Assembly (NCBI RefSeq): GCF_964199755.1
Contig: NC_133898.1
Coordinates: 29,763,985-29,827,984 of the forward strand
Source of the DNA: Larus michahellis
Lineage: Eukaryota; Chordata; Aves; Charadriiformes; Laridae
Direction of reading: 5' to 3'
DNA: 64,000 bases
Below the pieces are notes generated by a model. The model was not told the DNA's origin, made no database searches, and worked only from the letters and a program-made list of their open reading frames with translations. Both the position numbers and the translations under genes were made by a program. Shown here piece by piece: positions 5,553-55,625 of the stretch (within the stretch, counting starts at the first letter, position 1; every line of letters begins with the position of its first letter).

Positions 5553-5566
5553 GGCCCCGCGGCCAT
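5549..5566 (-). promoter_or_regulatory. Upstream ORF overlapping the VASH2 start
   Basis: An ATG at 5566-5564 in strong context (G at -3, G at +4) opens a five-codon ORF encoding M-A-A-G-P. Its TGA overlaps the VASH2 ATG as ATGA. If the transcript starts upstream of 5566, translation of VASH2 would require leaky scanning or reinitiation at the overlap. Confidence 0.55.
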
Positions 5567-5638
5567 GCCCGAGCCCGGGGGCGCCGCAGTGGACCGCTGC
5601 CGGGAGGTGCCCCGCGGTCTCGCTGCCGCCCGGGCCCT

Positions 5639-5672
5639 CTCTCTCTATATATAAAATATATATATGTGTGTG
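5639..5672. repeat. Short CT / TA / TG microsatellite
   Basis: A run of alternating CT, then TATA-type dinucleotides, then TGTG sits about 90-120 bp upstream of the VASH2 ATG inside otherwise GC-rich DNA. It may influence transcription start, but that is inference. Confidence 0.6.
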
Positions 5673-8600
5673 CGTATTACGTGCGTGCGGAGGAGGCTGA
5701 GCACGGGGACGGCCCCCTCCCTAGCGGCGGGCGCCCGCTCGTCCCGGGAGCCCCGGCCCTGCCCCGGCCCCGGCGGCGCTGGGGGCGCGCCCCGCGCCGC
5801 GCTCCATGCCGCCGCGTTACCACGCTACCGGCCGCCTGCCCGCCCTCGGCGCGCTCCCATTGGCGGCCGCAACAAAGAGGGGCGGAGCTCGGGGGGCGGG
5901 ATGAGCCGTGAGTGGCGGAGAAGCTGAACGGAGGCGCCCCCTGCCGGGCGGCCCGCGTCACCGGAGTAAGGGTGGCAGGGTGAGCCCCTTTGCCCGCAGC
6001 CGTCCGGCGTGGGGCTGCGGACCCCGGCCCTCGCTACGCGAAGGGCACCTGGAGATCAAACTCTTCATCGGAGAGCTGGGCTGTTCCGTTCTTCCTAAGA
6101 GAGCTGGAAAATTCCGCGTTAACCATTGAGTGTTACGGTGATGGCAGCGAGATCCCAGCCTGAAGGTGAAGGCTGCTGCTGAGCAAGGAAGGCTACAGGG
6201 CTCTTCGGTCCAGTGGGCAAAGGAGTGCCCCAGACCTGGGGGATTCCCACCCCGGGGATGAGTGGCTGTGGTCTTATCACAGCCTGGCACCCTCCCTTTG
6301 CCACGGCTGGCTCACAGTGTGGTGTGCTTGTCCTCCATGAGAGTATTTCCTGCTCTGGTACTAGGAGCACTGGGTGCCCAACCGCTGAGTAGGAGGGAGG
6401 GTAGTCCCAACACGGCCTTTGTCTGGGTGTTTTGCTGCCATACAGACTGCCAGAGGGCTGAGTGAGTGGTCCATGACAGCCCGATACTCAGGAGTACTCA
6501 CAGCAGCAATGTCCTGCCTCGATCCCCTGCAGCAGTCAGAGGTACCTGCCTCGCATGTCTGCGCGCACTGCTAACACCACAGAAACAACGGCGTCTGGTC
6601 CTCTACTTGTGCCCAGTGTGATGGAGCTGTGGATGAGAGGAACTGGGAATACATCTCTCCCACAGGGCTTTGCCCAGCCGTGTTGGTGGCCTTGCAGCAT
6701 CTTCTGTGCAAACAACTCCCTGGCTGCTGCTGCCATCTTCACCACTCGACTCGGTTCCCTGATGCTGATTTCCATGCTCAGAGGTATTTTTTTAGCATTT
6801 TATATCAAGCACAACAGTGTCAGCCTAATACAACTCCTAGAGCTAGAGGTGACCTCCCATCAGAAACAAATAATAGTCTAAGAAAGGTTGTTCCCATCCC
6901 CTGCCTATGCACTCAGATACTCCCGCCACTCTGATCTCCCCTGCTCCCAGCCAGGCTGGGTGCGTACCTGTGCATCTCCTCAGCAGCTGCAAGTACTGAT
7001 TTTCATCTCTCAGCATAAATAAACCTCTCCAGTACCCTAATCAGCTTCCTGGAGGCTCTTGGGAGCCACGGGTGTAAGTTGAGTTGCTAATCTCTCACCG
7101 CAGGAATTGACGTCTCTGTGTGTCTTACCAGTAATCTGCCCCGCCGCATCCCGGGTGCGTGGACTGCCTGAATCTCATCAGGAGCTTTAAGGTAAGGGAG
7201 GCTGGAGAAAGGCTGTTCCATCAGCTAAAGCAAACCAAGGGCTTCAGCTTACACGGCTGGCCCAGTGTCAGCTTTCAGCCCCAGGAGGCTTTGGTCTAGG
7301 GAGCACCCCGAGCTGAACATGGAGGCTCTGTGTAAATGGTGACTCAAGCTGGGGGAGAGGAGGGAAGGTCAGAATGCATTTAGAGCTGCTGTGAAGTCTT
7401 CACCCTCTCTGCTATGTCCTGCATTTCCCTAATAATCAGGCAAAAACTGCAACTGGAGGGCAAATGCGGTCCCACACTGGCCAGAGGCGATCCACACCCC
7501 CCAACTGGCTTTGGGAGCAGGATCCCAGGGCAAGCGCAATCCCTCTCTCCTTCTGGAGCGCAGATGAGGCTGTGCATCAGCAAGATGTGAGAGCACCAAG
7601 ATGAGCTCCAGATGGGAGCTGAAAAAGCACAGAGACCCAGAGAGGCTGCAGATGGCCGCAGCCATGGAGGAGCGGGCTGTAGGGGAGCAGAGGGAGGCTC
7701 AGGCAAGGCAGCACAAGGAAAAGGGGGCTGAGAAAGTCTGCAAGCTGACAGGAGCAGAGCCAGAGGAAAGCTTGAAAATGATTCAGACGTGGATCTTAGG
7801 ATCAATGGGACTATGTGGGTGGTGACAGCCATGCGTGAGCAACCCAGGGGCATGACCCCTTCCAATCAGGACCAAAAGAAAAAAAAAATTTACAAGCTCC
7901 TCCTTGATGCTCAGGCTGAAGAGGGACAAGTTGAACTCCTGGAGGCCAGCCAGTACATCCAAGGCCAGCTGTGGGCTGGACAGGCAGGGCAGAGGTTACC
8001 TGATGTCCTGAAGCTAACAGCAACTTTGAAACAACAGCCTAAGGGGATAAAAGCAGAGTCCCCAAGTCCCTGCAGCTAAGAGAGTCTTAATTACCTTCTT
8101 CCCAGCTACAAATTAAGAGTAAAAATAGAGGAATGCTGTCTTGCTTTAGCCCAAGCCCTCCCCGGTATTAGACATTCAAGATGAGTAAGAGCAGGGTGGG
8201 ATATTCAGCGTGCCCCTCTGCATTCCCCCAGCATCCAACGGCTTTCACCTTGTGGGACTACCTAATTTTGATATCGTAACTCTCAGCAGAGCAGCCTTGT
8301 TCCCCGCTCTGTTCGCAGCTCTTCCTCTACCCTGCTGGTGCTGCCCTTCCCCTCACACCCCGGCTGCTGCCCAGCCTCTGCTCCAGAGTGCCAGAGCCTT
8401 TCGATTTTGAAATCCAGTCACTTTGCATGGAGGCACCTTTCTAAAGCTAGCTCTGAATAACACCTCGCACCTATGGTCTTCTTCCTCATGCGGCGCTTGT
8501 TGCTACCACAGCTGCTTTCTGGGTCAAAGAAACTAATTTGATCATAAAATCATGTAAGAAGGTTTTAACCTTCATTATTTCCAATTGCAGACTAATTTAA

Positions 8601-19668: not shown

Positions 19669-30465
<10,797 letters not shown>

Positions 30466-31150
30466 CTCGGCCGTCTCCCCACCCAGCTTCCCCGGCGGTA
30501 GCGGCGGCGGGCACAGCCCGGCTCTTCCCTGCCAAGGTCAGCAGCCTCCGGCTCCGCTACCGAACACACGCCGCCGTCGCCAGCGCCCCGCCCCGGCCCG
30601 GCCGCCCACCCGCGGGGCCGCGCCCCGGAGGCCCAGCCCGCCAGGGCGGAGCGGGAGGCGGCACCGGAGAGCGGGGGGAGGTTCTCGCCGGGCGGGGCGG
30701 TGCTGGAACGGGCGGTGTGTTCCACGCAGGCGAGGTCGGGTGGCTGCAGGCCGGTCCTCGGCGGGTCAGGGCTTGGTTTTCGCCTCCCTCCCGCTGGGCG
30801 CGGCGCGGGCTGGAGGGGCTGCTGCGCTGCGGACACACAGGCCGCGCCGCTCCCGGCACGTTCAGGGGAAATCATGGGGCTTCCCAAGCCGTCCTGGGCT
30901 TGTCCCTTCGCCGCGGCGGTGCAGAGAAGTGTGCCGAAGTGAGGGATGGGCAGAGATGGAGGCCCAAACGGCAGCGGAGGTTTGGCCAGGGCGGGTGCCT
31001 CGCCCAGGGCGTGTGCCTCCAACCATCCGCAGCCGCGGGCAAAGCATTCCTTGTTTCCACTCGGCCTCTGAAATCGGATTTGAGCATATCCCGAGAACTG
31101 TCCCTCCGGCTGCCCTGCGGAGGCGGTGAGGTGTCACCGCAGTGAGCAGT

Positions 31151-34100: not shown

Positions 34101-36320
34101 TGAGCTAGAAATGAACTATTTCAGCAGGATATTAAACAAACCTCAATAAACTGGACTTGAAAGAAAATGAGAGTCACATGTTTGAATTTCTTGATTGAAA
34201 GCTATTAGCGAATACAGGGGAAAATGTAAACATCCTCTTCCTCCTATGCAGTCTTCCAGCAACATTTGCCCACTCTTCCCACAAGAAAAAGCCATAATCC
34301 CAGCCAGAGAATGACTGCTTGCAACACAAGGTGCTTAACTGAAATTTATTTCTAGCTGCAGGTGTTTGTCTGGCCACATCAATTTTGGAATATGACTGCC
34401 CACAGTAGGCATATTTGTCAATGACCTGGATTCAATTTTTGATGTACTGACAGAGATATAGAAGTATACTCTTAAGTATCTAAGAAAAGTTATGAATTTT
34501 AAAATATGGGTGATAAACTCTACTATAAACAGTAGAAATTTGTGTTTCTGGGTGTCTCAATCCGTATAAAAGATGCAGAAACGTACATCTGCTACTTCTG
34601 TCAGGCTGCCATCTGGTTTTCCTTTTGTAGTTAGCTATCAATTTCATATACGTAATGGAATTTTACCCTTGAGTTTCCTATCAAAGCAAGCAGGGGAAAA
34701 AAATTATGTACACAAAATAAGTTCTGTGTACAAAAAAATAAGCATATTTATTGGGAAAGTTTATTGGGTTCTTATTCACTGAGATTAACAGGCTCTTCTT
34801 GTATCACAAAAAGTGTAACCTCCATCTGAATCCTTTATACATAGTAGGAAAAGTGTATATGCCCACAAAAAAATTAATAAAAAGCATGATCTGGAGAAGG
34901 GTTATCTTGGATGAACATTCTAATTTTTGACAAGCACTCACTCACTCAAACATTGGTTAACTTTGGGGAAAACCTTCAAGGCATTTTTTGTTGTTACTTG
35001 ACAAATCCTTTGCACAGATACTTGCCTTTCACCGCAGGAATGTGCTGGCAGACAATTCAGATTTCTCTGGTTCATTTCTTTCCTAAGAGATAATCAACTG
35101 AGCTCTTCTGTGAGAGAGATCAAGTGACATCAATCTGACCCATCAAAGGACCAGGGGACAGAAGTGATTAAGAGGCCACGCAGATGCAGCCAGCTGCACC
35201 TGACTGGGTTGGCTCCGTTCACCTGTAGCCAGAGGTGCAGCAGTTCATCCCATCCTAAATAGCACACTGGAGAGATATTGCAGGTTTCCACCAACGCAAC
35301 CCATTTATCAACTCAACGTAGAAGAATTCAGTAACGTTAGAGGAATTGCTCCCTAAGAGTTTTCTCTACTGGCTATAGCGGGATCCCAAGTGACTAACTC
35401 GGGTGCAGCCATCCGTGGATGCAAAATATCCACTGAGAGCTTACGCTCCCTGCCCCATCTATGTAGGAATATATAGCAACGTTGAAGGAATTAGTTGGTG
35501 AACCACCATTTAGAGCAACAAGGATAAAATAGCCTCTCCACTTCTAGGAGGTCTCAGATAACTTAAGAGTTACAACAATTTAAAGCGCTATACTAATGAA
35601 AAAACACCATAAAGTAACTTAAATTTTCCAACTCTCTTTCACTACCTGCCTGGTCCATGTACGCATATCCTTTGAAAATTAAATGGAAGGGACATGTGAA
35701 TTTGGAGCCATTAAGAGCCTAGTATGGAAATGTGCTTGTATTTTAAGGACAGATTGCTCACCCACGCTTGAGAACTGTTGCTACTTTTAACTCTTGAGGA
35801 AAACCAAATATTTAGTAACAGCTTGAAGTTCCCAATTTCTCTCTGAAGAGGTTATCAGCAGGAAGAGAGCAATGTTCTTTAATGGTCTACATCTATTCGA
35901 TAGGGAAGATGCTGGCTGATGTCAGCTTAACTAAAAATCAGCAGGGATTTTTTTTGTTTAGACTGACTAACAATAAAAGATGCCTGCCCAAGCCTCTGGC
36001 TGCAACAGTACATTATAGAAAAGGCATTAACATTCCAGTAGCGTTAATCATTTTAACAGGAACTCAGACAGACAGACACCAAGAGGGACTCTCCCTGTTG
36101 GAGCTCCTGTGTTGGGAAAGCACTCCCAGTGTTCTCCAATGACCCTTTCAAACAGTTATATTTTGCCGCACACCTAGCCTGATATAAACTATTTCAGACT
36201 AGCTGAAAAGCCAGAATGTCTCTCAGAAAAGTCCCTCCCTTTTATTATCAGGGGAGACAAGCCTAGTGCCCCTGTCAGCCACGCCGTTACTGCCACAGCC
36301 ACCAGCCACTGGGCACCTCC
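31151..36320. other. Intergenic interval upstream of FLVCR1
   Basis: AT-richer DNA without a coding region, RNA gene or interspersed repeat that I can support. In mammals SPATA45 lies between TATDN3 and FLVCR1; I could not recognise it here on either strand. Confidence 0.55.
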
Positions 36321-36668: not shown

Positions 36669-36945
36669 TAGAATCATAGAATCATTTAGGTTGGAAAAGA
36701 CCTTTAAGATCATCGAGTCCAACTGTTAATGTAACACTGCCAAGGCCACCACTAAACCATGTCCCTGCGTGCCACATCTACACTTTAAATACCTCCAGGG
36801 ATGGTGACTCCATCACTTCCCCGGGCAGCCTATTGCAATTTTTCCTAATATCCAATCTAAACCTGTTCTGGCACAATTAGAGGCCATTTATTCTTGTCCT
36901 ATCACTTGTTACTTGGAAAAGAGACCGACACCTATGACATGCAGC
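36669..36945 (-). mobile_element. CR1 LINE 3' fragment, minus orientation
   Basis: The plus strand begins ATAGAATCATAGAATCAT and continues GGTTGGAAAAGACC...ATCGAGTCCAACTG, the reverse complement of a CR1 3' end. Its position would be inside the last intron of the dead TATDN3 copy. An (AT)n stretch follows at 36946-36967. Confidence 0.92.
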
Positions 36946-37128: not shown

Positions 37129-37209
37129 CTCTTTTTTTGGAGCAAGGGAAGGGCACTAAGTCTCCAAGCAAATGTTCTCCAGTGGAATCTGTTTAATTAA
37201 ACTTCTCTC
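37129..37209 (-). pseudogene. TATDN3 paralogue, exon 9 copy with nonsense codon
   Basis: The 81-nt block reads LIKQIPLENICLET, then TAG at 37156-37158, then CPSLAPKKE. The parent reads [14 protein letters not shown], Asp, SPALGPEKQ. The stop therefore replaces the metal-binding Asp precisely, and homology continues after it up to a GTATAG donor. The parental acceptor position lost its AG, but a GAG three bases inside could serve in frame. Confidence 0.88.
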
Positions 37210-38483
37210 ACTGGTGCAGACAGGAAAATAAACAAGACAGACTAGCCCATGAGAAGGTCAGTCTCACTACAGTAATCAATATACAAAATAACTACTGTCT
37301 CTGCCAGAATGGCATTCAGACTGTTTAAGCCTTTGGAGATAATCCTGTATTTCCAATGAACTGCAAACACAGGCTGAACAGAGTATTTATGTCCCTTAAG
37401 ACCTCAAACAATACCAAAAGCTTATAGCTTTTAGAAACCTTAGGAGGGGAATGAAAAGGAAATAACTTGAGTCCTGAGGATAACTCTGCTTTGGGTACTT
37501 CCCTCTGCTGTCTGTGCAACAACCTAGGGCTCCTAGGAGCTGTGCATAGGACAAAAGTGATGCCGGATGCCAGAAAGCGGACTCACAGAGCTGCTGAAAA
37601 GGTACGGGTCAGTTTAACGCACTGGTGAAAGAACAGCACAGCCACGACTCGGCTGGCAGCTCGGGGGCACCGTGCTCAGAAACGTGCCAGCATCCCTCCT
37701 CTGAGCCTAAGTGAACGGACAGGGAGAGCTCATTATTGCCTCCGTTTAGCTAGGCAGATTTAGCACTCTCGGTGGCTCTCCTGTCAGCTCAGCTCTTGCC
37801 AAGGTAAATGTCTGAGTGCTGGAAGCAAAAGACTGTGCCTCCATCAGGCCAGAGGGAGGTGATGGAGCAGCCAGAGCCTGGGGCAAGAGCAGAGCTGGGC
37901 AACGTGTGGATGGATGGTGGTGAAGGTGAAGCTCCCACCACTCCCTGACAGGGGGTTGGCTTGGGAGAGGCTGCGTTTTTGAGGGACCAAAGTTACTTAC
38001 ATGTCTGGGAAACTTTCTTTCATTTGCAAACACCAAACCATTTCACTGTGGATTTCATACTGAGCTTTCAGTTAAAAAGTGTTGAAATGCTTGGTTTTAC
38101 GTGGGAAATACTGAAAAAAAATCAGCCTCTCATTTCAAAATGAGAAGTTTTGTTTGAAAACAACAGCCTGTGGGAGGCTTAGCTTCAAACTGCTATGCAA
38201 GGTCTCTTTCTCATATTTTTTTCCAAAATCCAAAAAATCCCAGTGTCTTACTTTCATTCCAAATGAAAACAAGTTTACAGGGGCATTAGCATTTTTCATG
38301 GTGTGGAAGTCGCCCTCCAGCCAGCCACAGCCAACCCCCCTATCCCTGCTAGTATCGCTTTTCCTTCTGCATTGATTCAGGTACTGGAAAATGATAGCTG
38401 GAAGAGAAGGCAAAAGGCCAAGGCTCGTGCAATCCAATTATAACCCTGCTGAAATGGCTTCCAGGAACTCCGCAAGGACTAAC

Positions 38484-38596
38484 CTGATCATGCCTTGTAA
38501 CGGCCGGAGGAAAAGAAAAATAATAGCCAGCTTGTGCCCCTTCCAGAGTGACAGACTGTCTCCCAGCAAAGTTACGGAGCAGTACGTCCTGAACAC
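38484..38596 (-). pseudogene. TATDN3 paralogue, exon 8 copy
   Basis: The 113-nt block carries [20 protein letters not shown] then YYFSFPP, matching 18 of 37 TATDN3 codons without gaps. The TatD His of L-L-H-A-F-D is Arg and the following Asp is Ala. The TTGTAG acceptor and CAG|GTTAGT donor are intact. Confidence 0.9.
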
Positions 38597-39555
38597 CTAC
38601 AATCTACGTAAGAAACCCAGGGAGCTGGGATCAGGGGGCAGAGTTGAGCAACTCAAACACCGTGTATCAGGTTTTCTTGTGGTAGGACAAGAAGACTCCA
38701 AGATGATAGTCAGTACTACGGTCACTGAAAAATGCAAAGCTTGGATTTGTTAACCCTGCCCTCCATATGGTGACATGGCTACTGAGACTCCCTCAGCCCG
38801 CTGGTGGTTAGGCAGGTACCACCAAATTAACTTCTTATCAGACACCAGAGGACTGGTAACGCGCACATTTTTCAGTTAGCACTTGCCTGGTCCCTTTTGG
38901 GACTTGCAAATATAGGAAAAACTTTTTGCTGTAATTGCTTATCTACCTCTCTTCCAGGTCCACAGCCCATTTTTTCTGTCCTGTTGTCTTCTGCCATGCT
39001 TATATTTTAAGTTATGCATAAACCTAATTGTTTTTAAATGAGTGGAAAGGATATACAGTTTTTTCCCCATTAGGTAAGTAAAAATTGGAACATATACATC
39101 TGCTTAAAATAGTCCACAGGGAGAAAAAAATCTCATGAAATCATACTTTCTTACCCTAATTCAAAAAACCCCACTGTACTGGGGAATGCTGAGGCAGCAG
39201 CTGTTTTGCTCCACTGCCTTCACCATTCCCCCCAAAGTTACAGTACTTCCCTTGGTCTCTGTTTCACTAATTTTCCATCTGATGTACTTGTTCAGGTGTA
39301 CTTTGGGATTACATATGTTACTAGGTCAGTACTAAGTAGTACTCCTGTGCTTTCCACCCAGGTCTCAGTAGACATTACTGAGTCTTGAGACGTACATTCC
39401 AGGCAGAGATGCATTACCATCACCTCTGTGTAAGCAGAGGCAATGGGTGCGGTTCTTCTATGTGAGCAGAGTCATCTCACAGATCACTTCCAAAACAGAT
39501 TATTTCTAAGCCCGGGTGCCGTACTCACTGTAAAAAAGACAGGAGCAATGCCTAC

Positions 39556-39611
39556 CTATCTCCTTCAGGAAAGCAATTGCTTGTCTGCCAGCTAAGCAAG
39601 GATGCACATTT
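39556..39611 (-). pseudogene. TATDN3 paralogue, exon 7 copy
   Basis: The 56-nt block reads NVHPCLAGRQAIAFLKEI against [18 protein letters not shown] (10 of 18 identical). The metal-binding His of N-V-H is kept. The GAGCAG acceptor and GTAGGC donor are both canonical and in the parent phase. Confidence 0.88.
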
Positions 39612-41424
39612 CTGCTCAATGCAAACATATGCCTTAGAAAAGCAGAGTGACACTGAGTGAGTTCATCATTTTTATCTTAAATATTAGTTTGTTTATTTTT
39701 AGAAAGCAATAGCCTCCCATTAGCAACAAAAGCAGCCATGGAGATGAGCAGAGCACTTGGCACTTGGAGCACAGTGGAAAGACAGGAGCACAGGTCACTC
39801 GGGAAGACAGCCGCGTGCGGTTCGGAGGAAGGCTTTGCACCTGCTCACTGCACACAGCCATGACAGCTGTGGAAAAGCAAGGCAGACCTGTTCTTTTTCC
39901 TTCCAGTTTTCCTTCTATTTCATCAGTTTTGGTGGTGGTGCACGTCCATCAAACACATTCTAAGATGATGGCACTGAACACCTACCATGGAGGGCACTGC
40001 TTGATCTGCATCCTTTTGCTATTGGAAACGTGAGGGAAAGGACCTCACCAGGGCAGGCAGTCTGGGGGAAGGATGCTGTCCTACAATGATTTTCCAGACC
40101 AAACACAGGCAGATGTCCCTTTCCATGGATCCAGATCCCTAATATCTATGATTCTATTTTTTGTGGATGTAGCAGCATAAGACATGTCAGAAGTCACATG
40201 CAAAGGTAGTTTCGAATCCCCCTTTACACTGACTCTCTCCTGATGCTGTTTTGAGCAGGCTCTTACAGCTGGAGGGCACAGAGTGAGGAGGGGCTGCTCT
40301 GACTCACCCTGGAGTGGACAGAGAGGAGAAGCAGCAGGCTGGGATAAGCAGTCCTTTTTTCCAGCCCCACCTTTGTATCTGCTATGCTAGTTCCAAAGGG
40401 TTTAAGTGGAATAGCTTGCAACGGGCTATACCCAAAACACCCTCTCCTGATCGCTCGAATTGCCTTATGGCCAGATTGCATGGAGGGTGCACAGCAAAGC
40501 AGTAGTGCTCCAGAAAATCTGATCGTTGATTTCCTCCAAATATTTGTTTTCCAGCAATCACCGCTGGCCATGTGTTATTTAATTTTTGTTGCCATTTGCA
40601 TCCATCTGAAGTTTAAGAGAGGCTTTCACAAGTGTTGGATCAAATTTAACTTGTTTTTAATCTGTCAGTGCCCTTGCCACCTATGCGAATACAGCTATGA
40701 CCCTTCCCCGTGTATGTAAACTGCATGCAGCATGCTTATTTATGTTAATAAGAAGATAAGGTTCTTTGGCCCGTCCTCCCTCCTCCAATGCAAGTTACAC
40801 ATATGAAGTGCTGAAACCTGAACTTGAGTCAAGAAGCAGTTTTTGAGAGTAACTGGACAGGAGGCACATCTGCTCCTGGGCGTCATGGACAAATCACCAG
40901 CCAAGTTCCCTGGAGGTGAAAGCAGGCCCTCTTTTCGTTTTTCTCCCCTTGTTCTGATGAGAACCTTTCCTCTGCTGCATCATGTAGCCTGGGAGAGAAA
41001 ACAAAGCCTTGAGAGTAATTATCAGAAGTCTAAATCCTGAGTGGTCCTTTTAGAGAAGCATAACCCAGCTACCACTGAAAGGATGGTGTGGGTATTAACA
41101 GAAAAACATGAAGAACACTAAAAAGAAGTCTCCTCTGGGAGAAAGGCTAGGAAGTCTCCCACATCCTTAGCAGAAGCACAGCTGGAAAGGAACATTTTTC
41201 TAGTTCGCGTTTGGCAAAGACGCCATGCTCCTAAATGTAAGTGCTCGCAAGTATTGTTATTTTTTCATCTCAAGCCATTGAACACTTGGATAAACTCAAA
41301 CTTCAAAACAACCCCTGGTGTTCTTTAGAGGATGCCTGTGGAGCTGTGATGCAGGAAACAGGTGTCGAGCCTAGTTAAAGTCCAAGGTATGAAGGAGACA
41401 CTGTGTGAAAGATTTCTGGCTCAC

Positions 41425-41534
41425 ACCAGCAAGTCCAGTTGTTTTGCCATGGCCAGCTGCAGCACAAGAACTGTCTGCTGCTCCTCGCGTTGCTGAGGCA
41501 TGGACACGAGCCATGGAGTGAAGTCCAGCCCAGC
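41425..41534 (-). pseudogene. TATDN3 paralogue, exon 6 copy
   Basis: The 110-nt block opens with A-GLDFTP, keeps the QREEQ-TVL and A-K-x-L-D-L pattern, and matches TATDN3 exon 6 at 17 of 36 codons without a gap. The GTGAGC donor is in the same phase. The acceptor position reads GG instead of AG, and no in-phase substitute is obvious. Confidence 0.88.
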
Positions 41535-42043
41535 CCACACAAAGAGCCAGTTAAGACTTCACAAAATGCGATGGACTTCAAACTGTGGGGATCTAATGCC
41601 TCTGCTAGCTTAATTTCCTCAGGAGAGTGACAGAAGCTCTCAGCAATGAAGAAACAGCACCCTCCAAAAGGCAACATACGTGGAAATGTAGTAACATATG
41701 AATAATAAAAATCAAGAAAATGTGACATCAGCTATGAAAATACTCTTGGTAAAGAGCTAACATAGCTTCTCTAGCTTCCCTACAACGTCTTCATTGCAGG
41801 AAACCAGCATTTCAGACATCTATCAATACACCTCCTTGTGGAATTTTGCAATTTTCATTTTACTCCTGCACGAAAATAGCCAGGAAAATAAAGTTTGGGG
41901 ATTTAGTCCCAACTCATTTCATATCTATCCATGCAGAGGAACTTAAGCAGCCAGAGATTGCAATGAGTTACAGGCACCTTAAGGCAGTTTGCATATAGTC
42001 AAATCAAGCAAACTCTGGTTGAGCAAAAATCAGAGCATATTAC

Positions 42044-42106
42044 CTTGCTAGTGGCCACCAGTTTATCTTTGTATTTCTCAAAGAGCAGGAGGACAGATTC
42101 CACATG
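42044..42106 (-). pseudogene. TATDN3 paralogue, exon 5 copy
   Basis: The 63-nt block reads HVESVLLLFEKYKDKLVATS-K against [21 protein letters not shown] in TATDN3 (9 of 21 identical). The active-site Glu at the exon end is Lys. The GTAATA donor is kept, but the acceptor dinucleotide is TG instead of AG. An in-frame AG lies 15 nt further upstream, so an extended exon is possible. Confidence 0.8.
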
Positions 42107-42399: not shown

Positions 42400-45300
42400 G
42401 GCTGAGCTGAGTCTCATCTTCTAAGAGCTGGGAAACCTCCGAGAAAGGCATCTTGGCAACTTAATAGGTCCCTGGCAGCCTGCTCCTGGGTGGTGTCCTT
42501 CCCAGAGAAAAGGCAGTTGTCAGTGGCAGAGAACAGGTTTCATTGAACCAACCTACCAGACCAGTCCCACGAATCGCTACCTTTTCAGCTGAACCCTTCA
42601 TCACTCTGGGCTATTCAAGAGCACAGGGTCATGCTGCACCAGCAAACAGCACATGGACACAACAATTTCCCACGGACCCTGTCCTCAGCTTTGGTAAAAC
42701 TTCACTGTGGGCTTCCAGCAATGAGGCCCCCATCCAGTGCCGTGTGGGACAGAGGTGAGGAGGGAAGGAGATTTCTCCCCATCCCTGGAAGATGGGAGCA
42801 AGACAGCCTCTACCAGCAGGACTCCCACTGAACCTCAACTCTATCTGCCACTGGTGGCAACAGGCTCAGCACTGACCCTCCTCAAGTTATGCCCCAGCAT
42901 TCACCCTCCTCTGCCACAATCTGCATCCACTAGGACAGCAGGGATGAAACAAGACCACTGCATGTAGCTGCACCTCTCCAAAAATGGGCAACCCAAGGAC
43001 TCCAAGAGGGAGCTCTGATCATCCTGATACCACAGCAGCTTCCACGTGCTGGTCAAGAAACAATCTCTTTGGATAGATGGTCCCCCCACAGACACATAGA
43101 TTGTCAATGGATGTGCTGCACTCACTGGGGGCGCGGAAGGGATTATTTTGGAGCGTGCTGCCATCTGCTCATTCATATTATATACCACATTAGCCCACTG
43201 CTATTGCCTCAACCCAGCACAGAGGTCCTGTGTAGTACAGAGTTGAGTTTCCACCCTGACTTTTCCAGACAGGAATAATGACCCCTAAAGAGAAGGGAAG
43301 TTATCCAGTGATGCTTTGATTGGAGCTCCCCACATAGTGCTCCATTTAACTTCTTCCCACAGCGCTCCATTTGTTCGCTTCCTCCCGCTTTGTTGTGTGT
43401 CCAGAAATGTTCTGAGCACAAAAGTACTCTCTCTATATATTTATAGCAATAAGCCAGTGCCAATCAGGACTTCAAAGCTGCCCTCTCCAGGCAGTGCACT
43501 TCACAAAGAAAGACCTTCCTGCTAGATAATCCCAAGTCCTTTCCATTTCATGGGTTCACCAGTGGTCAAGTGCTGTGCAGACCTAGGAGGTCTCAGGCAG
43601 CGGGTCCAATTCTACTTGGGAGTGGCAGCGTCCAACACACATTCCTATGGAAATCAGTTAACATGGTCATGCTGTCTCCTAGTCCACATCCACGACTCAC
43701 AGTTTTTGACAACAGTCAACAAATTTTGGCAGACAGATAGAGCTCTTGGAGATACAAAGCTCCTACAAGGTTTGTGAGAGCTGGTGACCATGTGAATGAC
43801 ACCGACCCTCTCTCCATTCCCTGTCGAGGCTACCAAGAGGAGGCACTCACCCAGCTGCTGAGGCTGACGCCGGCAGCTGTCCAAACATGACCTACCCAGC
43901 TCTGGACTAATCTCAGCATGTGCTATTTCTTGCCTAAATGGCAATCCAACAAGTGCAGGTAGGCAACATGGAAGAGAGCTGCAGAATTACAGGGAAGTCA
44001 CAGGGACACAGAAGAAAGCCAAAGCCCTGTGGTGGGCAGAGCCCAGAGGGTACACGGAGGGACTGGTGGTACCGTGGGAGGGATCAGGGAGACACACAGG
44101 GAGCTGGGAATGCGGCACTGGGAGTGCTGGACCGTAATGAGAGCGTCACAAGACATGGATAGGAGACTGGGATTGCTGTGGTGAGGAGGTCATAAATCCC
44201 TGGGGAAAAAAAACTACATTGGTTGTGCTGTTTGCGAGATAACATGTCTTCTATCAATGTGGGACACGTACTTTATGTAAGCTGCAGTTGGGCGCTGATA
44301 AGGACCCAAGTGTCTGTTTGTACTCTTTGGTGACAGAGCATACAGCCCTGGCACAGACAAAATAGCGGATGCAAAATCTGAATGTGCGTATTAAAGAAGT
44401 CAAACGCAGTCTCCACACCCTGTCACAGAAATACAAAATACACATGGGAAGGAGCCAGGCACCTCAGCTGGACCGTGGCGCTGCCCTGCTCGTCTGCTCT
44501 GCTCTGAATTGGAGGAACCCCAAAGCACACGGTGACGGAGTCGGGATGCCTTTGGGGGGTGGGAGGAGGCAGGGACATGTGAGCTGTTATTCCCGGGCAG
44601 CAAGCGTGGCCCAGGTGCTGTAAGTGCCAGCAGCCGCGGGGACCTTGCAGCAGATGGGGAGGACACTCGGTGCCACGGGGCAGAGCTCTGCTGCTGTTTT
44701 ACGCCTACAGGCTGTGTTGATAGGGACTAAGGAGGGTGAGTAGCACAAACAGCTCTCCCGCCTCTGCAGGCAGGCTTTGACAGCCAGCCCCAGCCCCAGC
44801 CCATGCGCTGGTCCAACCTTCCTGCCAGGTGATACCTATGAGGCATCACGGGTTCAATCACACTGATGATGGTGTGATTTTCCATGTCTCACCCCCTGTA
44901 CTTCCAAAACAGGGGGATGTGGCCCTGCTCCTCCCCATGCCAGTGTTGCTTTGTGGTCCTTCAGGCTGGTGTACTCATTCCCATGCTGGGAAGCTGAAGG
45001 TTTGCCCAGCCATGCCGCGGTGCCGGTGCTCTGCCGTGGCAGGCTGGGCTCATCTGTATGCAGCCACCAACCATGGACACCATGCAGCCGCCTCACCTGC
45101 CCTTGGAGGCAGCATTCATAGACATATTACCTCACCCAGGAACTGCAGACAAAATCCATATATTTTGATGTTGCCTGTCACTTTGGTAGGACATCAGATA
45201 TGTCCCCAAGCATTGTGGCAGAAGTTGCTTGCTCTTCAGACCACAGCCCTTTGAAAACAGGCCAGATCTTCCTGTCCTGCGCACATGGCATTTCTCTACA

Positions 45301-48300
45301 CTTTTTTTCAGCTTTGCCTTAAGTTCCTTGGTGGCACCTGCGCAACTCACTACATGACAAGCATGACAAGTATGACAAGCATTCCATGCACCAGCAGCTC
45401 TGTGCACCAAAGCCCTCTGCGGCAGCCAAACCAAACGCCGGCACCACTTGTTATGCTGTTTTCTAGGGCAGAGAGGGGCTACACCTTGCTCCTACGGACT
45501 CCTTGATGCAGTGCTTCCTTGTTTCTGCTTTTTCAGGTCAACCACATCACCATTTTCATCAGCAGACCCGGGTGTAGTAGTGGTCTCCTGTGTCTGCATT
45601 AAGTACCCCGTTGGCAGCATCTCTCTGTGTGCAGCACTGAGCATTTGGGGAGACAAGTGCCTGCCCCAGGCACAGGCTCATCATGGCCACAATCCTCATT
45701 ATGTTTTCTCACCCAAGGAGGGGCATAAAAATTTGCCAGGCCCTGGAGGGGGTACTTTGTACTCACTGCACGGTGAGGCCACCACGCAGGGCAGTGCGGG
45801 TTATCATACCCCAACCAGTTCACACCGATAGAAAAGCCAACCCCAGCAGGGGAAATGAACGGATGGATAACCACCTGCTGAAGAGGAAAATGCTGAGACA
45901 ACTAGGTCCTATGGCAATTCGTATCCTTCCTTTGATCTCAGCTGCATCTTTTTATCGCGTATAGAAAGCAAAGAGAAGAACAATAAACCTTTCTGCTAAG
46001 CCAGTGGCTCTCTCAAATTAATTTTCCTGCTCTGTAACAGGAACAGAGGATCGAACCCCTGCCTGTATCAATGAAAAAACAAACAAAAGCAGAAGTTCAT
46101 TAGTGATGAAAGTTGCATTTCCCGCCAATCATTTATTTGTTTTTGCCTCTAAAGAGGCTATCTATGCATGGCATAGATAGGCTCTTGGAAGCACCTCCAG
46201 TAAAAGTCTTTGGTCAAATTGTTTAAACTCTTGTCACAATAAACAGCAGGATTAAACAGCGTATCATCCACTTGGCCTCATCACCATCTCCTCACTTGTT
46301 CCCATGTCAAAATCTGGAGAAACTCATCACCCTCGCAGTTTGCCCCAGAGTTCAGCAGATTCAGGCCTTGTTAGTCCATGACTAAAAGCAAGTTTCAGAA
46401 GAAAGGCCCCAGGAGGACAATCGACCTGCAGCCCTCCAAAAAATATTTGAGTGAGCACAGATATAGCCCTTAGTTCAAGTGACTTATGCTGAAAACTTTC
46501 AGTTCTACAATACCCACTCCACTCTTGCAAATCACTTGGCCTTCAAGCAGAAATCTCTTAGGTCTTGTTCCATGTGAGTCCTGCGAACAGCATGACACAG
46601 GTGGCAAAAGGGCGGTGACACCAGCCAGCCGAGGAATTGCAGTTTCAGTGCCCTTCCAGCCCCTGCTACGGATTCAATGTGCTCATTGAACAAGGAAAGT
46701 GCAAAGTACCTCTGTGTGATTTGGTAGCCATCGATGACATACGCTGGTCCACTATTTTGTCTCTATCAACAGACAAATCCACTTTAGAAGCTCTCTAGAT
46801 CTACAAGCTCTGCATCTCTGCCTATGGAAAGTACCTTCATGTTATTACCGTCAGCCTGCATCCCCCTCGTTATTTATGCCTGGTGTTACGCTACGCACTT
46901 ACTATAAGCCCTTGCACGTGTGGGAGTCCCCAGCGCACCCAGTGCATCTGCGTGTATTATTTTAAGCCCGGAAAGAACCGTGCAACATGAGGCCTTTTTT
47001 TCTGGCAGAAGCTGTACCATCCAGAGCTCCATCAATAACAGAGTACTGACTAACGAGCGAGGCACTCTGAAGGCACTAATTATGCCAAAGAAATCACAAA
47101 CCTTTCTTGATTTCTATCACATTGTGTACACCCTGCAAGGCAGAGAGACATGAGGAGTCAGTCATACAAAGTGCAATCAATCAGATCTGCTGTTTGTAGA
47201 ATCGCAGGGAAAGGTGCTGGCTAAAGGTATCAGATGGATCTTGGGATCTACCGCTTTCCATACTGCTGCAGACCATCCGTGCCATTCCGCCTCTGCGAGA
47301 CAGAAGTCACCAGGGCTGTTAGTGTCCCCCAAAATCAGTGGCATGACTGAAAAGACCTGGGTCTCCACTAACTCTGTGCTTTCTCTCTCATTTCCCCACA
47401 GGTTTCCTGAAAGCTGGACAGGGCATCCAGCTAAATTTGCACTGGGTCTTTCCCTGAGTACATCTCTGGCCACTCCAGTGTCCTGTGCTACGTAGGAGGG
47501 GACATGCCTTCCCCAGACAACCTGAGAGGCTGCAGCAGGGCTCAGCACACACACTGGTGTTGCTAAGGCCAGCCTTTGTGGGAATGGAGGGTTTCATGGT
47601 GCGCAGCCACAAGGCTCCCCCACCAGCCGTCCTGCCTTCCCGAGCCCCTCCGGACCAGGCGTTAGCAGGCAGAAATGCAAACTCTCCGCTAAATTCCCTT
47701 TTCAAGGTAAAGACTCAGGATGACTGCTGAGGAATGAATGATGTTTTCCAGCTTGGAAACCACACATCCTCCCCCTGCACATTAGGGCTACCACCACTCC
47801 TGAGTGAGCACCTTAAAAAGTTCAGTTTCCTGCACAAAGAGGACTTTATTTATTGCCAGCACCTGCCATTTCCCCAGCACTGACTGCATGGGTCTGGGGC
47901 AGAGCTCACACAGCAAACCAATGGGAAGAGGGTGCTACTTCTAACCCTTGTTTGCTTTTAGGGATGCCAACGTGGGATGGGAATGGCACTGCATTTTCCT
48001 TTTCTGGAGCGCCAGGCCACCTACGCCATGACTTAGCTCAGGCGCCGCAGGTTTAAGGAGAGGACAAAGTTGGCCTGTTTCGCAGTGGGTGCCCTGCCAG
48101 GCTCACCCTACCCACGGCTGCTGCAATGCCAGGTTTTTCTCGCCCAGGGAAGGAGGGAAAAGCAGTACCATGCCACCTCTCCCAGCCCCAACCCCACTCC
48201 TGCGCCACCGCAAGCATCTCTGGGCCCTGCTGCTGCAGGGACAGGGGACACAGGCTGTGTCCCCCACGGCTGGCCACCTTCAGCGGTGCCCTGCCCAGCT

Positions 48301-50499: not shown

Positions 50500-50643
50500 C
50501 TATAGCCGTAGAAAGTTCCGAAGTTTGGGGAATACTTTAAGTGCGTTCTGTGTAGTCACTTCTATAACTTCTTCAACTGGAATTCCTTTAATTTTGGCAA
50601 TGTATTCTGCAGCAACGTAAATATTTTTTGGTTCATTTCTCAC
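50500..50643 (-). CDS. TATDN3: TATDN3 exon 10 with stop
   Basis: 47 codons plus TAG at 50500-50502, covering [20 protein letters not shown] and the C-terminal helix with [20 protein letters not shown] acceptor. Confidence 0.94.
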   Translation of the reverse strand: MRNEPKNIYVAAEYIAKIKGIPVEEVIEVTTQNALKVFPKLRNFLRL

Positions 50644-53600
50644 CTGAAAAAAAAAAAAACCAGACCCAATTGCAGATCCCTACAGATGACAAATGTTTCA
50701 GATTCAGTACACACTGACACAACTTCAGTCGGACTGTGGCATCTGTGACCGAGAAATTACATGTATCTATTCTGCTTGGTTTACAGTTAGACTCGATGAT
50801 CTTTAAAAGTCTTTTCCAACCTAAATGATGCTACGATTCTTGGATTATTCTCCCTTTTTGCCCATTCCTGGAATTTCTTCTCCTTTCCCAGCCTTGGGAA
50901 CACAGACTTGTTCATCTCAAAATTTGCACTTGGCAACCCCTTTTGTCCCTTGTCCATGCTGACACTACTCCACTCTCCCATGCCAGTAACTAACCTCCAT
51001 AAGGCCTGGGTTTGGATATACATGCATAGAAGTCCCTCCCCCCATCACTTACCTGTTTTTCAGGCCCCAGAGCAGGAGAGTCAGTTTCTAAGCACATACT
51101 TTCCAGAGGTAACAGTTTCACAAGCTTCTGCTTCTTGAAGAAAACAAGACAGCTATTAAACACTTTATGCACTTAGACCTGTGGGGAAAAAAATGCATGA
51201 AAGGAGGACACCCCCTGCATTTAAAAGCAACGTCGAAAGACGTTGGTGCCACCGTCTGCATTTTATCAACAATTTCAGAATGGAAGCAAGAATACCGAGG
51301 AGCTGCTAAAGAAGACCCTTCAAATTAAGATTATCCTGTTTTCTAAATATCTGAAGTACCATTATCTAAACACTGAACCCATTGTTATCTATGAAATCAT
51401 GTAGTTATAATTGCACAAAATACCCTTTATTTAGAGTTATCGATGTAATTTTAATTTGCTGGCTTTCTGTATATATAATATTTGTGTACCTTTTTCGCAT
51501 CTCTGCGTTTACCCCTCAACCCCAGTTTGCTTTCCTTTCTCCAAGTTCCTAACCTCATCCCCCACCTATATCCATCCCTCACACCCCCTCCACTTGAATC
51601 ATGCCTTTTCCTTTCTTACATTTCCTGGGCTGATCACAGAAAGCGATGATGGTGCAGGATGGAAACAGACCGCTACTCCAAAATAAGAAGTTAGCATAGT
51701 TTATGGCAGCCCAGAGTAGAAATTAAGAGAGCAGTCTCATCAAATCAACGGCTGAACCTGACCAATTCTGTCTTTAAAGCGACTTAGCTGCTTCTCTGCT
51801 GTGTGCACCTTGTGATAATCACAATTTTTCAAAGGTCTGTCACTTAGCCAACTGTGAGCAGATTTCCTTTTGTATAGAAAGTGCCATAGCATGGAGACAG
51901 AAACTAGTCCTTTTCCACGTGTCATGTCCCTACTCTAAAACAGTACAGTGAGAGAAGCTTCCAAAGAAGAGCTCACCAGAAATCACAATAAAATGAGAAA
52001 GAAAAAAAAAATGCCTATTTTCTTAACCCTTGTTTCTCAGGAATAGCTGAACTGTTTTAACCAATATTTCCCCCAAAAAGTCTAGCTAAGGCAAAAGCCC
52101 CAGGGAGAAATTTAACCAAAGTAAAAATGTGTAACACTATAAGGAACTGAAACTTCTATTGAGAAATGTCAGGTGACAGCAACCCTATGTGAGTACTGCT
52201 AGTCCCACTTCAAACTGTACAGACTTAAAGAACAAGCATATTCTTGAGCTGCACAGTGAAAACATTCCTGTTTGCCATCCTGGTAAGCTGTCAGCTATCA
52301 TCTGCAAGCCCCAAGAAGGAGCAAATCCCTTTAAATGTTACCTGTTCACTCCTTATAATGGAAGGAGGAATGGAGAAGAAGTATCCGGCTTTCACCCCTT
52401 CCATCGCTACAGATGGCTTCCCATCAAATGCATGAAGCAACACCTTCGTAGCACCTCAGAGAAAAGAAGCAAACCAAATCATTAGCAGTGTTTACAGTAG
52501 GTCTGTGATGTCCGCTTCCAATGAGACCTTGGTCCCATAAAGAATGAATACACAATCTCTGCACTATTCCTCCCGAGTTTCATGTGCACAAACTGGTGTG
52601 AGGACATGGCACAACTAAAGAGATTCGGCTGACAACAGCCATGACAGAGAAAATACATTAAAAACATACCTTGTTCCTTTAAAAGATTAATCGTTGGTCT
52701 TCCAGCTGAGCGGGAATGAACATTTCTGCACGGCAAGGAGAGGCCCGACATCAGGAAATTCAGCAAAATACATTTTTTTAAATAGTACAAACAAATTAAC
52801 AGCATCTTGAAGACAATAATTAATCTGCATTACATCTTTTATCAGAAAAAAAATCTAGAGACATATATATGAATCATTTTAGCTACAGTGAAGATATAGC
52901 AACAACAAAGCAAGGACAGGACACAGAAGACCACTGTATCCAAGTGCAAACATAGGGAAAATTCTATAATTAAATCTCAAACTGGAGACTGATAGGACAC
53001 TAACGCCAGTTTAATCCATGTAAGAAAAGTTCTGTGGGCTCTTAGTAACTATAAATCCTGGGAAATGTTTCCCATGTTACTGAGATCTGGCAAATTCTCC
53101 TAGTAGTATAAACAAAACGTACAAAGGCAAATCCAGGCTTCTTGCTAACTCAATCTGCTTGATCAAAACCTGTCTTTGTCCTTCCTTCTGTTCATCCGTG
53201 CTGGCAAATCTGGGAGTGAAATCTAGTCCAACCTACAATACAAGAAGAGAAGTGAAAAAATTTTACAGACCTAACGCTTGACTAAGCCACAATACCACAC
53301 ATAAAGACAAAAAATGCTTCGAAACTGCAAGGCATTCATAATATATATACTAGAGACTGCAATTAAAATGAGCTCAACCACAGCTCAACTCAGAAACAAA
53401 CCCATTCCCAACCATAAGCTATGAAAGCATTTGTGGGCAGACAGTTACTAACAAGTGTATTTAGCATTTTAATCTGTAACTGCTTTTCTGAGGTTCTAAT
53501 ATTCTACTGAATATTATTTCAGATTAAATCTTAAATCTGGATTTCCAATACAGGACCTGAACCTGTAGCTTTATCTCTACCAAAAATTACCCATTAATTC

Positions 53601-55625
53601 TATACTTTTTTTGATTTAAACACGTTCAGGCAAAATTCAAAGTTTGTCAAAGCAGCCCCATTCACAGTTACATCAAGCAAAGTCCTCGATATACAGTACA
53701 AGTACAACATGGCAAGTTTAGCTACAAAGCTCTGCTGATAACTGCTTTTTCTGCAGCCAGTGCAGAAGCAGCCGTAAGTCCCTCCAGTACCAACCCACAA
53801 AAGAGGCAGACTCTACCCTAAAGCTTTCAAGCCTCGGTTAGTTTATAAACAAATATAAGACAGGAGACAAGACATGGATACAGACAGATAAGCGATCACA
53901 AAAAAAGAACTGTACAAGCCGGTGAGGTGTACTGAAGTCACAACTTAGCCTAATTTTGTCAGGGAGGAAGGCAGGAAGGATCTGAATGAGGATAACAGTG
54001 TGACTTGACACTTCATTGTGCCAGAGAACAGGTCAAAAGACAATATAGCATAATTATGCAATTCTTCCTACTAAATCCACCAGCGTAAAAGCCATCTATT
54101 TCCTAATAACGATAATGAAGGAAAAGAGGGAATCAGGCAAATCTATGAAGGAAAGCACTTTAAGAGTTCATTAAGTTTCACTAAGTTTTTGTAGTTCTGG
54201 TGACAGATACTGCCAAAGCCATACACATTGAAACAACTTATGGAATTTTTACTTACTTCTCCGATCCCCACCAATTTATCTTTGTAGAGTTCTATAAGCG
54301 GCAACGCAGCATCCAGATCCTGCAAGAACAAACTAAAGATGCAACCCTCACTGCCCTTACAAGATGGAAGGGCTATGAGCTCAGCATTATGATTAAATTG
54401 GCATTTCCTTCATCATTCTTAAATTCTGTACCTTAAAACTTGCTATGACTGTGAGTTGTGCGGTCAGGCAGACTTTAGGAATGTGCAGAATTTCCCTTCT
54501 TTATTTAATGACCCTTCATTTCAAGTTATCTTTCCACAGGAGCATTAGAAGTAATTAAAACAAGGCCCATAAAAAGCCTGGTAACATTAAATGGCTGCAG
54601 ACAGCTCTCCAAGTTTTTGGGGCGAAGGGCACAAAGGGTCGCCTTACACTTCCCATGCTAACAAAGGGACATCTGCAGACACACACCCATGCTGTTTGCT
54701 GTAAGTAACGCACTCACTTGGGATTCCTAAAACTGTTTCGCTTCAGTAATACTGCCAGATGACTCCAGTGAACAATTCTGCTTTAGGACTAATGCGGACA
54801 AACGGATGCACTAAGAGACACAGGGATTTGGTCCGCTGGGTCTCCTGTATCACAGAAGCGCAGAAAAATCACTGGGCAAATCTGAAGTTCAATCAGGCAA
54901 AGCAGAGCATCCCATCGTCCGCCCCGAGCAGTCCCAGCAGGGTTTTATAGCTGCGCTGATCTAATGCGATGGTATTTTACCTTCAGAATAACACTGCGCT
55001 GCTCCTCCGGCGAAACCTCTTGAACCGGGTGAACTCCCAGGCAGGGCAAAACAAACCCTGGGAACCTGGGAGCGTGAAACGACAGAGAAAACAAGCTTAA
55101 AGTCAAAAAGAACGGCCGGCCCAGCCAAGCAAGACAGCGGGGCTTCCCTCCCCACGCTTGGCTCCCGCCAAGGCGCGGACCCCGCGGCCGGGACGCGGGT
55201 GGGCGCCGGGATACTCTATCCCCCTGCCGTCCTCGTACCTCTCGGAGAGCGCCACGACACTGCGGAACTCCTCCGCCCGCTCGGACACCACCACCAGCGC
55301 CGACACCGCCGCCTGCGACAGACACAAACCCCCAGCCCACTGAGGCCAGGCCAGGCCAGGCCAGGCCAGGCCAGGCCGGGCGGTGGGGCCGAGGAGGAGC
55401 GGGGGAGAGGGTTGTTGCCGGCTGCCTCACCTGCTCCGCCTCCCGCACTACAGCCGCCACGTCCTGCAAGAGACAAGCACCGCCTTAGCACCGAGGCGAG
55501 GCGAGGCGAGGCGAGGCCAGGCTAGGCCGGGCCAGGCCCCCGGCCCCTCCGCGCCTCACCGTCTGGAAGCAGGGCGCCGCGAGGTGGCAGTGACAGTCCA
55601 CCGGCCCCACCACCGCTGCCGCCAT
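50500..55625 (-). CDS. TATDN3: TATDN3, TatD-family metal-dependent nuclease, complete (10 exons)
   Basis: TATDN3 is a putative metal-dependent deoxyribonuclease of the TatD TIM-barrel family. Joining 55560-55625, 55431-55463, 55239-55312, 54981-55065, 54257-54319, 53123-53232, 52670-52725, 52342-52454, 51053-51133 and 50500-50643 gives 825 nt: 274 residues plus TAG, the same length as human TATDN3, with all junctions in phase. All expected metal ligands are present: H12 and H14 (DCHCH), E107 (IGE-VGLD), H147 (NVHSR), H170 (LLHAFDG) and D218 (CLETDSPA). The gene is divergent from NSL1 with 85 bp between start codons, and is followed by a decayed tandem paralogue on the same strand. Confidence 0.96.
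50778..50840 (+). mobile_element. Short CR1 3' tail fragment
   Basis: The sequence GACTCGATGATC...TTTTCCAACCTAAATGATG and a terminal ACGATTCT are the last ~60 bp of a CR1 element, antisense to TATDN3 in its last intron. Confidence 0.8.
51053..51133 (-). CDS. TATDN3: TATDN3 exon 9
   Basis: 27 codons, [20 protein letters not shown] then ALGPEKQ, holding the last metal ligand D218. CAAG acceptor, GTAAGT donor. Confidence 0.95.
52342..52454 (-). CDS. TATDN3: TATDN3 exon 8
   Basis: 113 nt with [17 protein letters not shown] and [10 protein letters not shown]; ligand H170. CTGAG acceptor, GTAACA donor, phase 0 out. Confidence 0.94.
52670..52725 (-). CDS. TATDN3: TATDN3 exon 7
   Basis: 56 nt encoding [18 protein letters not shown] with ligand H147. 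GTGCAG acceptor, GTATGT donor, phase 1. Confidence 0.94.
53123..53232 (-). CDS. TATDN3: TATDN3 exon 6
   Basis: 110 nt starting [10 protein letters not shown] and running through the [16 protein letters not shown] helix. TTGTAG acceptor, GTACGT donor, phase 2. Confidence 0.94.
54257..54319 (-). CDS. TATDN3: TATDN3 exon 5
   Basis: 21 codons, [20 protein letters not shown] plus the active-site Glu E107 as last codon. TTGCAG acceptor, GTAAGT donor. Confidence 0.94.
54981..55065 (-). CDS. TATDN3: TATDN3 exon 4
   Basis: 85 nt encoding [20 protein letters not shown] and the following R-S-V-I-L-K. CCCAG acceptor, GTAAAA donor, phase 0 out. Confidence 0.93.
55239..55312 (-). CDS. TATDN3: TATDN3 exon 3
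   Basis: 74 nt encoding [16 protein letters not shown] and the helix to ALSE. TCGCAG acceptor, GTACGA donor, phase 2 out. Confidence 0.92.
55344..55378. repeat. (GGCCA)n tandem repeat
   Basis: Six perfect GGCCA units and one GGCCG unit, in TATDN3 intron 2. Confidence 0.9.
55431..55463 (-). CDS. TATDN3: TATDN3 exon 2
   Basis: A very short 11-codon exon, [11 protein letters not shown], with TTGCAG acceptor and GTGAGG donor, phase 0. Confidence 0.92.
55493..55517. repeat. (GAGGC)5 tandem repeat
   Basis: Five perfect GAGGC units in TATDN3 intron 1, followed by diverged GGCCA-like units. Confidence 0.9.
55560..55625 (-). CDS. TATDN3: TATDN3 exon 1
   Basis: 22 codons, [15 protein letters not shown] onward, containing the two metal-binding histidines H12 and H14. 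GTGAGG donor, phase 0. Confidence 0.94.

Follow-up and report, generated by a model that had tools for sequence, protein, structure and literature searches.

Vertebrate TatD nucleases are counted as three genes in the available text of two papers (PMC10085689 and PMC12709183), the first of which also describes birds as being without TATDN2. In the genome of Larus michahellis, a 64,000-nucleotide stretch of contig NC_133898.1 (positions 29,763,985 to 29,827,984 of the forward strand, here called the window) carries TATDN3, a Group II TatD nuclease, together with a second, disabled copy of this gene lying between TATDN3 and FLVCR1. The copy would be a fourth vertebrate TatD gene, lost in this genome.

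Comparison with the described members of the family shows both what the copy has kept and what it has lost. It shares with TATDN3 the order and phases of its exons, the exact lengths of six of eight exons, 107 of 240 residues, and the end residue, but differs in a broken frame, in the change of five of six active-site residues, and in lacking a recognizable match to the HxH-bearing exons 1 and 2 in the interval searched for them. By sequence it has the superfamily fold of TATDN1 and TATDN2, its joined exons matching TatD_DNase (Pfam PF01026) on the TATDN3 branch of the family. Of TATDN3 and TATDN1, the two compared, the former is much the closer to it. Against the PDB, the joined exons match human TATDN3 at an expectation value (E) of 2.6e-62, the next TatD protein at 4e-14 and TATDN1 no better than 0.24, and against Pfam they reach 3.5e-33 (115.5 bits, cut-off 27); the values 2.6e-62 and 3.5e-33 are inflated, as the exons had been placed using TATDN3.

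Among known cases STK33 comes nearest in kind; the available text of PMC4509753 presents it as a unitary pseudogene in neognath birds, an old bird gene left as exon remnants with stops and insertions or deletions (indels). As it appears there, STK33 is one gene whose orthologues are known, whereas the copy is a paralogue standing beside its living sister gene. A second TATDN3 is not reported in the available text of the TATDN3 literature covered, which includes PMC10085689, PMC12709183 and PMC13418713, with most subscription papers outside this scope. It is quite possible that a “TATDN3-like” annotation already exists in other species. Relics of long-lived paralogues that have since been lost can be readable from raw sequence where gene finders skip them, and if the copy is indeed an old fourth gene whose protein was kept without its catalytic residues, a non-nuclease role of the TatD family in land vertebrates would be implied. 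To our knowledge, no intact orthologue of the copy has been described.

Structure of the TATDN3 Copy

TATDN3 occupies 50,500-55,625 on the minus strand, with 10 exons and an intact frame of 274 codons, and its product matches the human TATDN3 structure (PDB 2y1h) at E = 7.9e-131. The copy begins about 4.4 kb downstream of the last TATDN3 exon, on the same strand and head-to-tail with it, and spans 46,062-34,938; FLVCR1, also on the minus strand, is its downstream neighbor, so that the order is TATDN3, copy, FLVCR1. Eight exons, homologous to exons 3-10 of TATDN3, are recognizable. They are listed here with the number of whole codons giving the same residue as bird TATDN3.

Exon 3, 45989..46062, minus strand: equal in length (74 nt) to its TATDN3 counterpart; both splice sites, AG and GT, present; in-frame TAA; 8/24 codons
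Exon 4, 44465..44549, minus strand: AG acceptor present; one codon shorter than in TATDN3; donor off the homologous position, with a GT 2 nt downstream; 10/27 codons
Exon 5, 42044..42106, minus strand: 63 nt; GT donor kept, AG acceptor lost; E107 changed to K; 9/21 codons
Exon 6, 41425..41534, minus strand: 110 nt; donor GTGAGC kept, AG acceptor lost; 17/36 codons
Exon 7, 39556..39611, minus strand: 56 nt; splice sites intact at both ends; H147 kept, R149 changed to C; 10/18 codons
Exon 8, 38484..38596, minus strand: 113 nt; both splice sites kept and frame open; H170 changed to R; 18/37 codons
Exon 9, 37129..37209, minus strand: 81 nt; shifted acceptor, intact donor; in-frame TAG in place of catalytic D218; 13/27 codons
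Exon 10, 34938..35082, minus strand: AG acceptor kept; one extra base, a frameshift; closing TGA at the position of the TATDN3 stop; 20/47 codons

An initial annotation of this DNA, made from its letters without database searches, had recognized a broken tandem paralogue of TATDN3 at this place in five minus-strand blocks, exons 5-9, agreeing with the parent in order, strand, phase and exact length (63, 110, 56, 113 and 81 nt) and giving the same residue in 67 of 139 whole codons. A recount returns the same number and every one of the five blocks stands. The extent it assigned to the paralogue was too small, however, as exons 3, 4 and 10 are also recognizable; with them, six of the eight exons (exon 3, at 74 nt, in addition to the five) are identical in length to their TATDN3 counterparts.

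The damage is spread over much of the copy. GT or AG is found at the homologous position at 11 of 15 splice boundaries; exons 5 and 6 have lost their acceptors, exon 4 has a shifted donor and exon 9 a shifted acceptor. Two in-frame stops are clear, the TAA of exon 3 and the TAG of exon 9, while a third, in exon 10, hinges on the position assigned to the extra base. The best preserved part is formed by exons 7 and 8 (39556-38484), which retain four splice sites and contain no stops, most of the other exons being damaged. No CpG island is present in 43.5-50.5 kb, where one would look for a promoter of the copy.

These features are those of an unprocessed pseudogene: eight separate exons in the order and phase of the parent, on the same strand, with the open frame disabled. 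Because its exons, introns and their order are parent-like, and because stops, a frameshift and splice-site losses interrupt them, the copy is an unprocessed, intron-bearing tandem duplicate of TATDN3, disabled in this genome. A processed pseudogene (retrocopy) was considered and is ruled out by the introns found between all of the recognizable exons.

Homology of the Copy to TATDN3

Evidence for the homology comes from searches of increasing scope. A translated search (tblastn) of the window with human TATDN3 gives matches for exon 8 of the copy (E = 2.8e-8), for exons 6 and 9 (1.9e-5 each) and for exon 10 (3.0e-4); exons 7 (3.8) and 3 and 4 (5.0 each) are weak, and exon 5 is not among the matches listed. 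In an ungapped scan of 30.6-50.5 kb, each TATDN3 exon was compared at its own length and phase, with 40 shuffles as reference. The best places of exons 3-10 fall in TATDN3 order in all eight cases, and seven of the eight score above all 40 shuffles, the exception being exon 4 (31.0, with the shuffles reaching 35.5), which gains 15 points when a one-codon gap is allowed (94 against 62 on a doubled scale). Exons 1 and 2 do not rise above the shuffles in scans of 46.07-50.5 kb with four queries (P from 0.14 to 0.85).

Taken as an ordered chain, exons 3-10 score 463.5 in this interval, compared with 95.0 on the opposite strand and with a mean of 110.4 and a maximum of 135.0 in 18 control scans (nine stretches of about 20 kb from the same genome, both strands), a result far removed from chance level. 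Parts of the chain stand out on their own as well: exons 3-5 upstream of exon 6 score 100.5, where the best of 36 controls reaches 54.5, and the score of exon 7 between exons 6 and 8 (37.0) is equaled in none of 108 controls.

The 1.4-Gb genome to which the window belongs, the sole vertebrate genome searched, was also queried as a whole. With bird TATDN3, all 12 matches at E<=1 lie inside the window, nine of them belonging to TATDN3 and the other three to the copy; with the copy as query, 12 of 12 matches are again inside the window, nine in the copy and three in TATDN3. As both queries match only this window, no intact copy is seen elsewhere in the genome, with the limit that the TATDN3 search scored 13 candidates and weak matches elsewhere could escape. 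A scan of the whole genome with the Pfam TatD_DNase profile gives a single match, on another contig (C2:157113540-157113710), but missed TATDN3 itself and is hence uninformative about further copies. That match is possibly an exon of TATDN1, a candidate identity.

Age of the Duplication

How old the duplication may be is approached from the DNA and residues of the copy and from trees. At the level of DNA the copy resembles TATDN3 only in exons and a few bases beside them, as would an old duplicate, the exceptions being one shared repeat of 61 bp and short matches at E>=0.07. The copy has the same residue as bird TATDN3 in 107 of 240 codons and as human TATDN3 likewise in 107 of 240. Bird and human TATDN3 differ from each other at 54 of these sites, and there the copy agrees with the bird at 11, with the human at 11, and with neither at 32. 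Birds and mammals separated about 320 million years ago, and because the copy matches the two equally at these sites, the duplication probably predates that split. The best tree agrees, placing the copy outside bird plus human TATDN3 (support 69; resampling of estimated log-likelihoods, RELL, 0.68).

The strongest competing explanation, which we regard as a minority possibility with some weight, is that the duplication is confined to sauropsids or to birds and that fast evolution of the copy gives a false impression of age. Several results leave room for a later date. Approximately unbiased (AU) tests leave both the grouping of the copy with bird TATDN3 (p = 0.155) and its grouping with human TATDN3 (p = 0.355) unrejected. 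The outgroup, both for the tree and for the tests on deeply conserved sites described below, consists of only three bacterial sequences from the PDB, since a search of bacterial and viral collections with the bird and human alignment confirmed no relatives, and such an outgroup may draw a fast-evolving copy outward in the tree. Against a recent origin stands the 11-11 division itself: had the event fallen within the last 60% of the bird lineage, a model of equal rates would yield 11 or fewer bird matches only at p<=0.04. Similarly, at the five informative sites where only the human state occurs in bacteria, the copy has the bird residue at two and the human residue at three.

Past Selection as a Protein

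Whether the copy was ever maintained as a protein is addressed by neutral simulations (12 settings of 1000 runs each) focused on the 186 sites that are identical in bird and human TATDN3. Replacements in the copy at these sites are conservative, with a mean BLOSUM62 score of 0.00 compared with -0.55 to -0.72 under neutrality, a level equaled by at most 2 of 1000 neutral runs per setting and, when the exon 10 junction is left out, by none of 1000 in all 12. Retention also follows conservation across the family: residues common to at least two of the three bacterial homologues are retained at 42 of 60 sites, as opposed to 54 of 126 of the remaining sites (Fisher p = 0.0004), a gap equaled, for each of four settings, in no more than 0.05% of the 2000 neutral runs. 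Because of these conservative replacements and this retention of residues common to bacterial TatD proteins, the copy was probably not dead from birth and was long kept under selection as a protein. The ancient duplication and long maintenance of frame put forward in the initial annotation thus find support in both simulation tests, the number of stops being insufficient by itself.

That the duplicate instead died at birth or shortly afterwards and then drifted without function for about 150-250 million years appears unlikely, although part of the record is what such a history would leave. Three or fewer stops occur in 12-28% of neutral runs at a neutral distance (d) of 0.30-0.36, and in 13-29% at the bird-human identical sites at d = 0.30-0.35, so that the stop count alone is compatible with death at birth. 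A residue identity of about 45% is likewise expected of neutral drift at d of about 0.36-0.42, the catalytic residues are lost, and conservation between bird and human fails to predict retention (96 of 186 conserved sites against 22 of 54 others, p = 0.17, not significant). Beyond the two simulation results, what disfavors this history is the preservation of gene structure, with exact TATDN3 lengths in 6/8 exons and splice dinucleotides in place at 11/15 boundaries, and the scarcity of lesions. Stops, splice changes and indels together correspond to a neutral distance of only about 0.06-0.09 per site (95% limits together 0.03-0.22), whereas d = 0.30-0.36 is required to account for the residue changes neutrally; the lesion counts disfavor d = 0.30, by 4.3 log units when indels are left out and by 8.3-16.5 when they are included at assumed rates. 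As a separate observation, on which nothing here depends, an apparent excess of bacterial states is seen, in that the copy shares the bacterial residue at 14 of 48 sites where TATDN3 differs from it.

Loss of the Active Site

The residues most closely tied to catalysis have not shared in this conservation. E107 and D218 of TATDN3 matter for activity, and the remaining active-site residues are those named for TATDN1, according to the available text of PMC10085689; H70, H147, R149 and H170 of TATDN3 were mapped from TATDN1, and all four are identical in the three bacterial homologues. In the copy, H70 has become P, E107 K, R149 C and H170 R, D218 is replaced by a stop, and only H147 is kept. With one of six active-site residues, the copy does not qualify as an enzyme of the TATDN3 nuclease type; the HxH motif of Group II TatD proteins sits in exon 1, one of the two exons not found in 46.07-50.5 kb.

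Retention of 1/6 active-site residues compared with 41/54 other deeply conserved sites (Fisher p = 0.008) suggests that a non-catalytic phase preceded the break of the frame. Two considerations temper this contrast. The six-residue set was picked after the alignment was known, and its composition affects the result, adding E216 giving 2/7 kept (p = 0.021) and omitting D218 giving 1/5 (p = 0.021). If the loss of four of the five active-site residues other than the stop had occurred only after the break, its probability would be about 0.003 at d = 0.08 and 0.05 at d = 0.2. Provided that the dating from lesions is right, nuclease chemistry would therefore have been lost first, while the barrel was still selected.

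Proposed History of the Locus

A history that accommodates these observations begins with a head-to-tail duplication of TATDN3, as seen in the homology, order, strand, phases and introns of the locus, that placed a second gene between TATDN3 and FLVCR1. This event would be old, probably earlier than the separation of birds and mammals. As the two simulation tests indicate, the copy would then have been selected for long as a protein, losing over time most of its metal-binding and DNA-binding residues, and in its last phase it probably acted as a folded barrel of TatD type that lacked nuclease activity and served, for example, to bind a partner or DNA. The frame would have been broken later, tens of millions of years ago; from the lesion counts and assumed bird mutation rates, the break may be put at roughly 30-60 million years ago, with wide limits of 12-125. 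Today the frame, as its stops and frameshift attest, yields no TatD protein in this genome. The history in its entirety, an old tandem duplicate long selected, non-catalytic in its late phase and then broken, seems to us fairly likely on these comparisons of sequence. A bolder extension can be offered only tentatively, and we incline slightly against it: that a fourth TatD-family gene, present in the bird-mammal ancestor and long catalytically dead beside TATDN3, is intact today in some birds, crocodilians, turtles or lizards, where it may be annotated as TATDN3 or not at all.

It is quite improbable that the copy is still some kind of gene, whether one encoding a truncated or alternatively spliced protein from exons 7 and 8 or a non-coding transcript upstream of FLVCR1. 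The intact splice sites and open frame of those two exons are what such a gene would need, but stops in exons 3 and 9, the frameshift in exon 10, the missing acceptors of exons 5 and 6 and the lack of a CpG island in 43.5-50.5 kb all speak against it. Chance resemblance or artefact, to which the individual weakness of exons 3, 4, 5 and 7 in the tblastn search might point, is refuted by the chain score and by the confinement of all 12 TATDN3 genome matches to the window, and its probability is negligible.

Other Features of the Window

The neighboring gene was identified from its first coding exon, which lies within an open frame:

Open frame with the first coding exon of FLVCR1, 29,794-30,537, minus strand: matches PDB structures of FLVCR1 (E = 1e-72) and Pfam MFS_1

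Two short segments, 36670-36729 in the intron between exons 9 and 10 of the copy and 50780-50840 in the last intron of TATDN3, derive from one repeat in opposite orientations and share 90% identity over 61 bp; we take this repeat to be the end of a bird CR1 element. Elsewhere in the window, 5001-6250 forms a strong CpG island (GC content as high as 0.77, CpG ratio as high as 1.04) whose long GC-rich open frames match no Pfam family, making it a candidate promoter or first exon.

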